IMG/VR virus record: IMGVR_UViG_3300017963_000439
Coordinates: 1 to 40,493 of that record
Reading direction: 5' to 3' (one strand)
Length of the DNA: 40,493 nucleotides
Source: a virus
The notes beneath the pieces were generated by a model that saw only the letters and a program-made list of their open reading frames with translations, searched no databases and had not been told where the DNA came from. The first letter of the stretch is position 1, and each line of letters starts with the position of its first letter. Shown here piece after piece: positions 2 to 3,920 of this stretch. Both the position numbers and the translations under genes were made by a program.

Positions 2-205
2 GGGCGCTCACGAGGTGTCCACACGACAGCAATGCTGGTCGGCGACTCCCACGGTGGAAAAGTGCACTATGACATCTCGCCGAAGGCAATGCGGAAGATG
101 TTCGGGCCTTCGAAGCTCTGGAAGCGTGTCGGCCCAGAGACGCTCGGCCGCGACCTTGTGCAGATGATCTCTTCGAGCTTCGTGAACTACTTGAGGCAGA
201 GATGA
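2..205 (+). CDS. Hypothetical protein, C-terminal part (truncated by window start)
   Basis: An open frame runs from the window edge to the TGA at 203-205 and encodes at least 67 residues; an internal ATG lies at position 32. The readable part is basic and contains SPKAMRKMFGPSKLW and a helical end (LGRDLVQMISSSFVNYLRQR). I do not recognise a family. Its stop overlaps the ATG at 202 (ATGA) and lies just before the methyltransferase ATG at 207, so it is probably translationally coupled to the methylation genes. The true start lies upstream of the window. Confidence 0.6.
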   Translation, partial: GRSRGVHTTAMLVGDSHGGKVHYDISPKAMRKMFGPSKLWKRVGPETLGRDLVQMISSSFVNYLRQR

Positions 206-1029
206 CATGGATACACGTCCCCGCCACATCGAGCTCTTCGCCGGCGCCGGAGGAGGCCTCTACGCCTCCAAACTCCTCGGATGGAGGACCGTCTGCGCCG
301 TCGAGATCGACGAATTCTGCCAGAAGATCCTCGTCCAGCGACAGCGCGACGGGGTCTTCGAGCCCTTCGCCCTCTGGGATGACGTCCGAACCTTCGACGG
401 CCGACCTTGGCGCGGACGCGTCGAGGTCGTTTCAGGAGGCTTTCCCTGCCAACCGTTCTCGGTCGCCGGCAAGCGCCGCGGAGAAGACGACCCACGAAAT
501 GGGTGGCCTCACACGATCCGCATCATTCGTGAAGTACGACCCGAACTCGCATTCCTGGAGAACGTCCCAGGCCTGCTTGCCCGGTCTCACGGATACTTCG
601 GGCGAGTACTCGGAGACCTGGCCGAGGCAGGGTACCATGCGGAATGGACGGTGCTGGGAGCAGACGATTGCGGTGCCCCGCATCGGCGCAAGAGGCTCTG
701 GCTCCTTGCGTGGGATACCCACGCCGACCGTGGGCGACTCGCGCAACTCACGCAACATGACCGCCAACCGGAAGCCCGGTTCGAAGGCCCACTCGGGGAT
801 GACCCTTTCGGACTTCATCTGGATATGGCCGACGCCGAGCGCGAGGGATTGGAAGTCGGGCAAGGCGAGCGAAGCGACGCACGCGCGCAACGCGAGGCCC
901 CTCAACGAGGTGGTCGAACGCAAGGATGGTGGGCCACTGAACCCGCCCTGGGTGGAGCTTCTGATGGGCTGGCCGCTCGGCTCGACAAGTCTACACCCCA
1001 TGCGCCATTGTGCCTTGTGCCTTGGCTAA
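202..1029 (+). CDS. Overlapping +1-frame protein nested in the first cytosine methyltransferase gene
   Basis: This 275-residue frame starts at an ATG sharing an ATGA junction with the upstream stop, five bases before the methyltransferase ATG, and runs in the +1 frame relative to it. The first third is Ser/Pro-rich. The second part reads like a real protein: YDPNSHSWRTSQACL, EYSETWPRQGTMRNG, WPTPSARDWKSG, then LNPPWVELLMGWPLGST. Proteins with this series of motifs recur in phage genomes beside or within C5 methyltransferase genes, as I recall them; their function is unknown to me. The frame probably once continued into a second copy of the MGWP motif at 1420, but an HNH gene now separates the two. 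The same kind of overlap occurs again at 3325-3861. Whether it is expressed cannot be told from the sequence. Confidence 0.5.
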   Translation: MTWIHVPATSSSSPAPEEASTPPNSSDGGPSAPSRSTNSARRSSSSDSATGSSSPSPSGMTSEPSTADLGADASRSFQEAFPANRSRSPASAAEKTTHEMGGLTRSASFVKYDPNSHSWRTSQACLPGLTDTSGEYSETWPRQGTMRNGRCWEQTIAVPRIGARGSGSLRGIPTPTVGDSRNSRNMTANRKPGSKAHSGMTLSDFIWIWPTPSARDWKSGKASEATHARNARPLNEVVERKDGGPLNPPWVELLMGWPLGSTSLHPMRHCALCLG

Positions 1030-1535
1030 TGGGGTTTGGAAATGAGAAAGACGCGAACAGGGTGGAAGCGTTGCAGGGCTTGCGGTGCAGTTATGACGAG
1101 GAAGCGCTTTGCGAGCGGTCGACTAGAGGGCAACAAGGAGTGGAGGAAGAGGCTGTTTTGCAGTCTCTCCTGCGCGAACACGAGAGATGTTGTCGGAGAG
1201 CATGGCCTCTCGTGGCGAGCGAAAAAGCACCTTCTGAGCGCTTGCGAGAATTGCGGGAGCAGGAATCGGCTTTCAGCGCACCATGTCGACGGGAACCGGG
1301 AGAACAACACTCCGGAGAACATCGAGACCCTCTGCGGCAGTTGCCACACTGTTTGGCATCATATGGTGCGGAGGCTTGGCAAAGCGGAGCCTGGGAGGAT
1401 GGTATACCGCGGATAGCTCATGGGGTGGCCGATCGGGTCCACAGAATCAAAGCCCTCGGGAACGGACAGGTTCCGATTGTGGCTGCGCGCGCATTCCGCA
1501 TCCTTGCACAGCGGATAGAGGAGACGGCATCGTGA
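207..1535 (+). CDS. C5 cytosine-specific DNA methyltransferase, interrupted by an HNH insertion
   Basis: This 442-residue protein is a Dcm-type enzyme that would transfer a methyl group from S-adenosylmethionine to C5 of cytosine in phage DNA, probably as protection from host restriction. Visible motifs are I (FAGAGGG from residue 11), IV (GGFPCQ with nucleophile Cys81), VI (ENV, 118-120), VIII (GAPHRRKRLW near 156-165) and X (RIKALGNGQVP near the C-terminus). Between the target-recognition region and motif X lies an insert of about 152 residues that is simply the off-frame reading of an HNH gene. Without it the protein would be about 290 residues, a more usual size. The insert is bounded by a 24-bp imperfect direct repeat and keeps the frame open. 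Whether the enzyme still folds is uncertain. A second protein overlaps it in the +1 frame. Confidence 0.88.
   Translation: MDTRPRHIELFAGAGGGLYASKLLGWRTVCAVEIDEFCQKILVQRQRDGVFEPFALWDDVRTFDGRPWRGRVEVVSGGFPCQPFSVAGKRRGEDDPRNGWPHTIRIIREVRPELAFLENVPGLLARSHGYFGRVLGDLAEAGYHAEWTVLGADDCGAPHRRKRLWLLAWDTHADRGRLAQLTQHDRQPEARFEGPLGDDPFGLHLDMADAEREGLEVGQGERSDARAQREAPQRGGRTQGWWATEPALGGASDGLAARLDKSTPHAPLCLVPWLMGFGNEKDANRVEALQGLRCSYDEEALCERSTRGQQGVEEEAVLQSLLREHERCCRRAWPLVASEKAPSERLRELREQESAFSAPCRREPGEQHSGEHRDPLRQLPHCLASYGAEAWQSGAWEDGIPRIAHGVADRVHRIKALGNGQVPIVAARAFRILAQRIEETAS
964..987 (+). repeat. Direct repeat flanking the HNH insertion, left copy
   Basis: The 24 bases here match 1420-1443 at 20 of 24 positions, and both copies read MGWPxGST in the +1 frame. 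The copies are 456 bases apart, an exact multiple of three, and the HNH gene lies between them. This fits a duplicated target or co-converted flank left by insertion of the HNH element. Confidence 0.7.
1042..1416 (+). CDS. HNH homing-type endonuclease nested in the methyltransferase gene
   Basis: This is a 124-residue HNH nuclease. The N-terminal half has a Cys4 zinc knuckle (CRACG, then FCSLSC). The C-terminal half has CENCG, then the catalytic HNH core (SAHHVDGNRENNTPENIETL) and CGSCHTVWHH. The length and domain order are typical of free-standing phage HNH endonucleases, which cut one or both strands at a related site and spread by repair. It lies in the +1 frame inside the first methyltransferase gene. 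The start is ATG 1042; a TTG two codons earlier is possible. No clear Shine-Dalgarno sequence is visible. About 75 bases of the 456-base insert are left outside the gene, too few for a group I intron core. Confidence 0.85.
   Translation: MRKTRTGWKRCRACGAVMTRKRFASGRLEGNKEWRKRLFCSLSCANTRDVVGEHGLSWRAKKHLLSACENCGSRNRLSAHHVDGNRENNTPENIETLCGSCHTVWHHMVRRLGKAEPGRMVYRG
1420..1443 (+). repeat. Direct repeat flanking the HNH insertion, right copy
   Basis: This copy reads MGWPIGST in the +1 frame and continues to a TAG at 1516, giving a plausible original C-terminus for the overlapping protein at 202-1029. In the methyltransferase frame the same bases lead directly into motif X. It matches 964-987 at 20 of 24 positions. 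Confidence 0.7.
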
Positions 1536-2698: not shown

Positions 2699-3187
2699 AT
2701 GACCTGGAAGATCGATACGAAAAGAGCTCTCCGATGCAACTTTTGCGACCTGGTCCACGACAAGGTCGAGGCCGGAGGCCTCTGGTATTGCCCGAATCCG
2801 ATCTGCCCGGGGTGTGGAGCGGCCTATCACCGTAGGAAGATGGACAGCTATCAGGAGATAGAGAACGGACGCCACACCGTAGACCCGAAGGAGAAGATCG
2901 CGATCGGCGAAAGGTTGCTCGAGCAACTCGACCTCGACCCGAACCTGTGGGAAGCTATTGAGCGCTGCGTGATCTACTACAAGGGCGGACCGAAGCCGCA
3001 CGTGCCGAAGGGCGGCTCGGAGCGCTTCAACGACCTCGGCCGCGAGCTCGCAAGGGAAGTCCAGGAAGAGATCCGACAGGAGGAGGTCGCCAGGCAGCGG
3101 GAGGCCTTCGCCAGGAGTGAGCTGGGAGGCAACGGGCGACGCGGCCTCAAGAGGCGGGTCGATGAGCGAAAGGATGCGGATAGGTAG
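2699..3187 (+). CDS. Zinc-finger-like hypothetical protein
   Basis: This 162-residue protein has an N-terminal metal-binding pattern: CNFC, then WYCPNPICPGCGAAYHRRKMDSY (two or three Cys pairs with a His within residues 13-50). The C-terminal part is charged, helical and rich in Arg, Glu and Gln. A similar Cys-rich head followed by a DSY motif occurs in hypothetical phage proteins, with no function I can name. A GAGG Shine-Dalgarno sequence precedes ATG 2699. Its last 26 bases overlap the second methyltransferase start, so the two are probably translated together. Confidence 0.7.
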   Translation: MTWKIDTKRALRCNFCDLVHDKVEAGGLWYCPNPICPGCGAAYHRRKMDSYQEIENGRHTVDPKEKIAIGERLLEQLDLDPNLWEAIERCVIYYKGGPKPHVPKGGSERFNDLGRELAREVQEEIRQEEVARQREAFARSELGGNGRRGLKRRVDERKDADR

Positions 3188-3920
3188 CCTGTTCTCTGGG
3201 ATCGGCGGACTCGAACTGGGCCTTGAGCAGTCCGGCTTGGGCTATACGACATGGCAGGTCGAGGCCGACGCCTTCTGCCGTTCCGTGTTGGCGCGCCATT
3301 GGCCCAGGGTCAAGAGGTACGAAGATGTTCGAGAAGTCGGAAGGCACAACCTCGAGGCAGTTGAACTCATCTGCGGAGGATTTCCCTGCCAAGACATCAG
3401 CGTCGCCGGCCGAGGAGCTGGGCTCGCGGGTGCTCGCAGCGGCTTGTGGTATGAGTTCCTCCGCGTTGTCGAAGAGCTTCGACCTGCATGGGTCGTGGTC
3501 GAGAACGTGGGCCATGGCAGCTCCCGGTGGGTTGACGGTGCTCGACAAGATTTGGAACTCGAGGGCTATGAAACGCTTCCGGTCCCACTTGCAGCGAAGC
3601 ATTGCGGAGCGCCCCACATTCGATCCCGCGTCTTCGTTGTTGCCCACGCCGAGCGCGAGCAGCTACGGGAGCTCGAACAACGGGTGCCCGCACGACGGGC
3701 GCACCGAATACGCTACGAAGGGGAAGCCGAGCTTGTGGACCCTCGCGAAGCGAGAAGGTGGCAGCCTCTCCCCGAACTATGTCGAAGCGATGATGGGGTT
3801 CCCCGAGAATTGGACCGTGCCAGATTACGCGCCCTCGGAAATGCTGTCGTCCCAAGAGTAGCCGAAGTTGTCGGTCACGTGGTGTCGCAATGGCACGCAC
3901 AAATCGTGGACGAGCGATGA
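3162..3920 (+). CDS. C5 cytosine-specific DNA methyltransferase, second copy
   Basis: This 252-residue Dcm-family enzyme has motif I (FSGIGG from residue 11), motif IV (GGFPCQDIS, nucleophile Cys76), motif VI (ENV, about 114-116), motif VIII (GAPHIRSRVF) and motif X (RLRALGNAVVPRVAEVV). All catalytic motifs are present and the spacing is compact, so it is probably active. It is diverged from the first methyltransferase and lacks the HNH insert, so the two may have different targets. ATG 3162 is chosen because of the GAGG upstream; ATG 3174 directly before motif I is an alternative. Its stop overlaps the next ATG (ATGA at 3917). A second protein frame overlaps it. Confidence 0.9.
   Translation: MSERMRIGSLFSGIGGLELGLEQSGLGYTTWQVEADAFCRSVLARHWPRVKRYEDVREVGRHNLEAVELICGGFPCQDISVAGRGAGLAGARSGLWYEFLRVVEELRPAWVVVENVGHGSSRWVDGARQDLELEGYETLPVPLAAKHCGAPHIRSRVFVVAHAEREQLRELEQRVPARRAHRIRYEGEAELVDPREARRWQPLPELCRSDDGVPRELDRARLRALGNAVVPRVAEVVGHVVSQWHAQIVDER
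3325..3861 (+). CDS. Overlapping +1-frame protein nested in the second methyltransferase gene
   Basis: This frame encodes 179 residues from ATG 3325, in the same +1 relation to its host gene as 202-1029 has to the first methyltransferase. It shares that protein's pattern: an N-terminal part opposite the catalytic motifs (SAEDFPAKTSASPAEEL), then LLPTPSASSYGSSNN, then LSPNYVEAMMGFPENWT. The PTPSA element and the (N/S)PxxVExxMGxP element match the first copy although the host genes are diverged. The N-terminal similarity could be forced by the overlapping catalytic motifs, but the later motifs lie opposite a poorly conserved part of the enzyme. Expression is unproven and its own ribosome-binding site is not obvious. 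Confidence 0.5.
   Translation: MFEKSEGTTSRQLNSSAEDFPAKTSASPAEELGSRVLAAACGMSSSALSKSFDLHGSWSRTWAMAAPGGLTVLDKIWNSRAMKRFRSHLQRSIAERPTFDPASSLLPTPSASSYGSSNNGCPHDGRTEYATKGKPSLWTLAKREGGSLSPNYVEAMMGFPENWTVPDYAPSEMLSSQE

Follow-up and report, generated by a model that had tools for sequence, protein, structure and literature searches.

The DNA analysed here, referred to as the window, is the full length of a 40,493-base virus record from IMG/VR. Close to its beginning, two reading frames on the same strand lie one inside the other. Frame 0 encodes the catalytic polypeptide of an m5C methyltransferase (alpha), and the +1 frame holds an open reading frame (ORF) whose product we call beta. Both ORFs run exactly as a first-pass annotation of this DNA had given them, and the motifs it had quoted from the +1 frame are present in the translation of beta (P0001). 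The features relevant to this analysis are the following.

193..196, + strand: GAGG, Shine-Dalgarno-like, upstream of both starts, 5 nt from ATG 202 and 10 nt from ATG 207 (from the sequence)
202..1029, + strand: beta, an 828-base +1 ORF of 275 aa, proposed target-recognition/motif-IX subunit (phrog_1008, 2.8e-23; +1 relation in homologues; start-codon pattern)
207..1535, + strand: alpha, m5C methyltransferase catalytic polypeptide, 442 aa, ATG start (PF00145, 4.1e-37, residues 7-172 only)
about 225-710, + strand: motifs I-VIII of alpha
532..648, + strand: conserved segment of beta, KYDPNSHSWRTSQ...YSETWPRQGTMRNG, opposite alpha from motif VI to shortly ahead of VIII (residue conservation)
718..936, + strand: variable region of beta with PTP modules (PTPTVGD, WPTPSARDW), proposed target-recognition region (alignments of homologues)
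937..987, + strand: motif-IX-like end of beta, LNPPWVELLMGWPLGST (residues invariant in diverse sequences)
1036..1416, + strand: HNH endonuclease ORF, in the frame of beta (phrog_1271, 2.4e-10)
near 1449-1475, + strand: motif X of alpha, KALGNGQVP
3117..3920, + strand: second m5C methyltransferase, alpha frame (PF00145, 1.4e-37)
3223..3861, + strand: beta-like +1 ORF within the second methyltransferase (phrog_1008, 1.2e-16)

Beta probably starts at ATG 202, which lies 5 nt upstream of the alpha ATG at 207 and overlaps the TGA of the preceding gene (203-205), as can be read from the sequence and in line with the coupling to an upstream stop that had been described before. Internal ATGs at 379 and 499 are possible alternative starts. 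The GAGG at 193-196 could serve both starts, that of alpha as well as that of beta. Among phage proteins, P0001 matches phrog_1008 and, with an E-value of 1.1e-7, phrog_26627. The second methyltransferase belongs to a different branch from the first gene and contains its own beta-like +1 ORF.

The HNH ORF, which is +1 to alpha, separates motif IX of beta from motif X of alpha, and alpha remains open through it to 1535. Relatives differ in this respect: some are compact, and some have an HNH within a long interval between IX and X. A repeat flanking the HNH ORF (961-998 against 1417-1455) scored no better than shuffles. Hidden HNH insertions are known in actinobacteriophage methylases, and the present arrangement is of the same kind, the ShiLan type, with the HNH ORF out of frame and the methylase open throughout; the paper describing that type deals with the HNH alone and makes no mention of a beta subunit (PMC11855218).

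Conservation of the +1 frame among homologues

Considered alone, the ORF in the window is not above chance: when the codons of the enzyme are redrawn synonymously according to the usage of the phage itself, the 273 codons of the +1 frame remain free of stops in 13% of draws (P(open) about 0.13). This figure speaks for a by-product of high GC content and of the conserved protein sequence of the enzyme. The significance of the beta ORF comes instead from its conservation in homologues. Loci were collected with beta as query from viral contigs, one genome per species and phage records, and a second collection used alpha only as query. Where both motifs are present (171 loci), LNPxWVExLMGWP lies in +1 relative to motif IV in 170, and beta is open beyond motif IV in 168. 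Frequent +1 stops in homologues, which the first-pass annotation had named as the mark of a by-product, are not what is found: synonymous resampling of the homologues predicts about 285 between motifs IV and VIII and 3 are observed, while the interval from VIII to IX has 0 against 110 expected. The +2 frame over IV-VIII stays near expectation (491 stops, 586 expected), and the remaining ORFs of the same contigs agree with the null (2205 and 2307). Thinning the set to 27 lineages less than 60% identical leaves 3 +1 stops against 52 expected, and to 18 lineages less than 50% identical, 0 against 32. In the whole set the depletion begins 10-20 codons ahead of motif IV, and among genes of the branch to which the window's gene belongs it is pronounced as far back as the start of the enzyme (12 against 59). 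It is found in low- and mid-GC homologues as well.

The independent search with the alpha profile only gave a similar picture, in that 75 of 76 distinct viral relatives have beta in +1; the 76th also has a beta match, but in frame 0. In none of the sets searched did beta occur on its own. At one locus from a MAG (L039, 1671-2408), alpha motifs I-IV pass straight into the frame of beta, a fusion that is probably due to a frameshift mutation or an assembly error.

Conservation of individual residues was examined on a gap-free alignment on alpha of sequences under 80% identical. Within the beta pattern YDPxSSSWRTxQ..L..FSxTWPxxGxMRxG, the columns D, W, T, Q, S, P, G and R are 0.6-1.0 conserved, whereas alpha alone would force 0.2-0.5, and the adjoining columns are not conserved beyond the alpha-forced level. 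Specific +1 residues are thus held far past what alpha imposes. Shared ancestry may inflate average conservation; it cannot produce a column-specific pattern of this kind in sequences less than 80% identical. Most differences over IV-VIII fall at alpha third positions, and alpha is therefore the stronger constraint in this region; codon-position counts by themselves do not prove selection on beta. The depletion of stops in low- and mid-GC homologues, the residues conserved above the by-product level, and the unremarkable numbers of stops in other genes and in other methyltransferases contradict an origin as a mere by-product, which is most improbable. The earlier proposal of true dual coding finds support in all the comparative tests that had been put forward with it, namely in stop depletion, carriage by 75 of 76 relatives and residue conservation beyond the alpha-forced level.

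A further regularity concerns the start of beta. It was analysed in the FAGxGGG branch, on 135 closely related genes. In 103 of these the first +1 ATG is located at +4 (77 genes) or -5 (26 genes) nt from the alpha start, and ATG 202 of the window is of the -5 type. Alpha codon 2 is AAT in 75 of the 77 genes with Asn at this position (20.5 expected), and this codon creates the +1 ATG at +4; the bias could partly be due to A/T-rich early codons. Once relatives are thinned out, however, an open +4 or -5 start of some kind is present in only 17 of 32 lineages. In the second gene of the window, and in L029 and L032, which are of other branches, beta would have to start further in because +1 stops lie upstream. 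Taken with the start pattern, ATG 202 appears a credible start of beta.

A proposed division of the enzyme between the two frames

Several observations indicate what alpha lacks. A profile built from 68 alphas matches M.HhaI residues 12-177 and nothing beyond, and the PF00145 match, which in a full-length enzyme takes in the TRD and motifs IX-X in one chain, is confined to residues 7-172 of 442. The AlphaFold model of alpha is confident at residues 1-185 and in the last 20, and residues 188-410 are mostly under pLDDT 50-60. The model can be aligned to M.HhaI over 197 of 327 residues (Z 22.5, rmsd 2.8), and the aligned part is the large domain plus the closing helix of motif X; the small domain, where M.HhaI has its TRD and motif IX, is missing. 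A search for a canonical motif IX in frame 0 of alpha found none; motif X is there, at 1452.

Beta begins with a conserved N-terminal segment, continues with PTP modules, from one to several and variably spaced, and ends in LNPxWVExLMGWPxGWT, where L, P, W, V, E, L, G and P are invariant across 41 diverse sequences. In the window this end, LNPPWVELLMGWP, has a motif-IX pattern in the motif-IX position. The best match of the beta-end profile among 177,635 PDB sequences is a DRM methyltransferase at its motif IX, PLEPDEVEMLLGFPKNHT (E 0.19). Comparison by hhalign of beta, or of its motif-IX segment, with canonical methyltransferases was not significant (probability under 2%), the scores of a custom PSSM were not separable from shuffles, and searches of Pfam, NCBIfam and PDB sequences with beta returned no significant family. 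Kelch-like designs, the top PDB hits of beta, were dismissed as chance repeats. The AlphaFold model of beta alone is poor (pLDDT 64, pTM 0.26), and Foldseek found no fold match for it; a poor model would be expected for an obligate partner, yet proves nothing. Since the motif-IX homology is not statistically significant, the identity of beta as the small domain rests mainly on complementarity with alpha. The first-pass annotation had spoken of a companion protein of unknown function; the companion remains, and its function is most likely that of the target-recognition/motif-IX half. The variable region of beta contains several WPTPT modules in L013, L016, L019 and L021, and their number varies among homologues, which suggests that the target-recognition region may grow through module repeats.

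The distribution of beta follows the same division. In five whole genomes, all 7 places with beta overlap alpha genes whose Pfam match ends after motif VIII, and the 10 other methyltransferases of these genomes in which the region could be measured lack beta and contain between 1 and 10 stops in +1. The methyltransferase of phage RB16 likewise has +1 stops. The statement that beta is always carried by the enzyme gene is thus correct within this branch and does not extend to ordinary bacterial m5C methyltransferases, which have +1 stops and no beta. In E. coli genomes only 4 near matches to a Salmonella-phage relative were present, too few for a population test.

The two motifs downstream of the catalytic core are not fixed to one frame. 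Motif X is found in alpha at most loci and in the beta ORF at 11-12, and at the latter loci alpha has stops (28) within the beta region; the zero alpha-frame stops where X is in alpha are partly definitional and were not counted as evidence. Motif IX, for its part, is carried by the alpha ORF in phages of Gordonia and Rhodococcus. In Gordonia phage Gudmit (L026) and Rhodococcus phage ReT1v-2 (L028), IX and X are both in the enzyme frame, and the beta N-terminus and PTP region remain in +1. As motifs IX and X swap between the ORFs, these are most simply parts of one enzyme. A different way of joining them would be programmed +1 frameshifting, which would fuse motifs I-VIII with the TRD and motif IX in a single chain. 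In L001, L002, L006, L007, L012, L015 and L017, where IX and X are both in +1, one shift after VIII would indeed yield a complete enzyme. At most loci, however, motif X is in frame 0, so that a second shift would be required, the +1 frame has start codons of its own, and it is open and residue-conserved well upstream of VIII, where a shift occurring later would not require it to be. Because of the conservation upstream of the needed shift and the usual position of X, we regard frameshifting as very unlikely.

The Streptococcus enzymes and a separate role for beta

Canonical methyltransferases of Streptococcus prophages (L286-L365) have their own TRD, IX and X in frame 0, and their +1 frame is nevertheless open over IV-VIII, with 0 stops against about 390 expected. 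The stop-free stretch begins 20 codons upstream of IV and ends about 110 codons downstream of it, with normal stops beyond. Because these enzymes too protect +1 over IV-VIII, they were replaced as negative control by the genome methyltransferases and phage RB16. The Streptococcus +1 frame spans about 130 codons, contains neither a TRD nor motif IX and ends in SLSDILEExVxEKYFLS. A +1 ORF over the catalytic core thus occurs more widely than beta, and a subunit model does not account for the Streptococcus group.

This group bears on the possibility that beta has a function of its own, for example as an anti-restriction factor or a regulator, and merely overlaps the enzyme. Its +1 ORF would allow the role of the beta N-terminus to stand alone, beta contains no recognised domain, and the dual coding would be equally solid under a separate function. 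Against it, beta is present exactly where alpha is without the small domain and, in the whole genomes, absent from full-length enzymes; a free-standing copy is missing from the sets searched; and motifs IX and X switch between the two ORFs. We therefore consider a separate function unlikely, less so than frameshifting.

A proposed two-subunit enzyme and its known counterparts

In our assessment, alpha and beta are quite probably the two subunits of a single C5 methyltransferase whose genes are fully nested, as in M.EcoHK31I. Alpha, from frame 0, would contribute the large domain, comprising motifs I-VIII for SAM binding and catalysis together with the closing motif X helix, and would supply the chemistry. 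Beta, from frame +1, would provide the small domain, consisting of the conserved N-terminal segment, the variable target-recognition region and motif IX. Both would be translated from one message with one ribosome-binding site, using starts 4-5 nt apart, and would assemble into an active methyltransferase in the manner of M.EcoHK31I. Alpha would stay open across the beta-specific region only because motif X must be reached. Methylation of the phage DNA would then give the usual protection from restriction. Conserved dual coding, the start-codon pattern and the distribution of motifs are shown by the sequences; translation of both frames, the heterodimer, target recognition by beta and methylation of phage DNA are what we infer from them.

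Hundreds of related phage and bacterial genes share the nested build, and in these, too, beta is most likely the missing DNA-recognising half. Somewhat less firmly, we think it likely that many phage and bacterial m5C methyltransferases that annotations treat as single enzymes are half-enzymes whose recognition half is an unannotated +1 protein with a second start 4-5 nt off, and that the nesting is old, spans many bacterial phyla and has motifs IX and X as mobile parts. If so, what was read and cloned as an "orphan" phage cytosine methyltransferase has in many cases been half of an enzyme, specificity resides in a protein dropped by current gene callers, and a clone of the annotated gene that does not keep the +1 start intact could fail in an activity test. 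The case would also be among the broadest of conserved same-strand dual coding in prokaryotes. It is easily tested, as a single stop codon can remove beta and leave alpha unchanged.

Parts of this arrangement already appear in public records. P0001 and all 117 beta sequences match PHROG 1008 / 26627, and PHROG 1008 is labelled "DNA methyltransferase" only, with no mention of overlap or subunit role. In the GenBank entry of Escherichia phage K1ind1 (L279), nested genes at 1321-2145 and 1409-2101 are given as a C-specific methylase and an "Mte8-like protein" in +1, and depositors annotated both frames also in Samy (gp49/gp50) and Juno112 (gp41/gp42). In the openly accessible literature, to which the search was confined (subscription papers lay outside it), we found no description of beta as an overlapping subunit.

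Among known enzymes, alpha resembles the canonical monomeric M.HhaI and Dcm in its large domain and differs in lacking the TRD and motif IX that these carry on the same chain. The closest counterpart is M.EcoHK31I, whose small polypeptide is encoded within the large gene in a different frame. This enzyme (YGGCCR) has motifs I-VIII and X on the large polypeptide and IX on the small one (PMC3404938), the same split as proposed here for alpha and beta. Its predicted TRD lies in the large subunit (PMC3404938), whereas here the TRD would be in beta. In M.AquI (CYCGRG), a second polypeptide bears the distal TRD and motifs IX-X (PMC3404938); it is likewise a split enzyme, and L001, Samy and Stasia share with it the position of motif X, which they have in the beta frame. 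Unlike in M.AquI, motif X of the window's gene is in alpha, and the two genes are nested, not consecutive.
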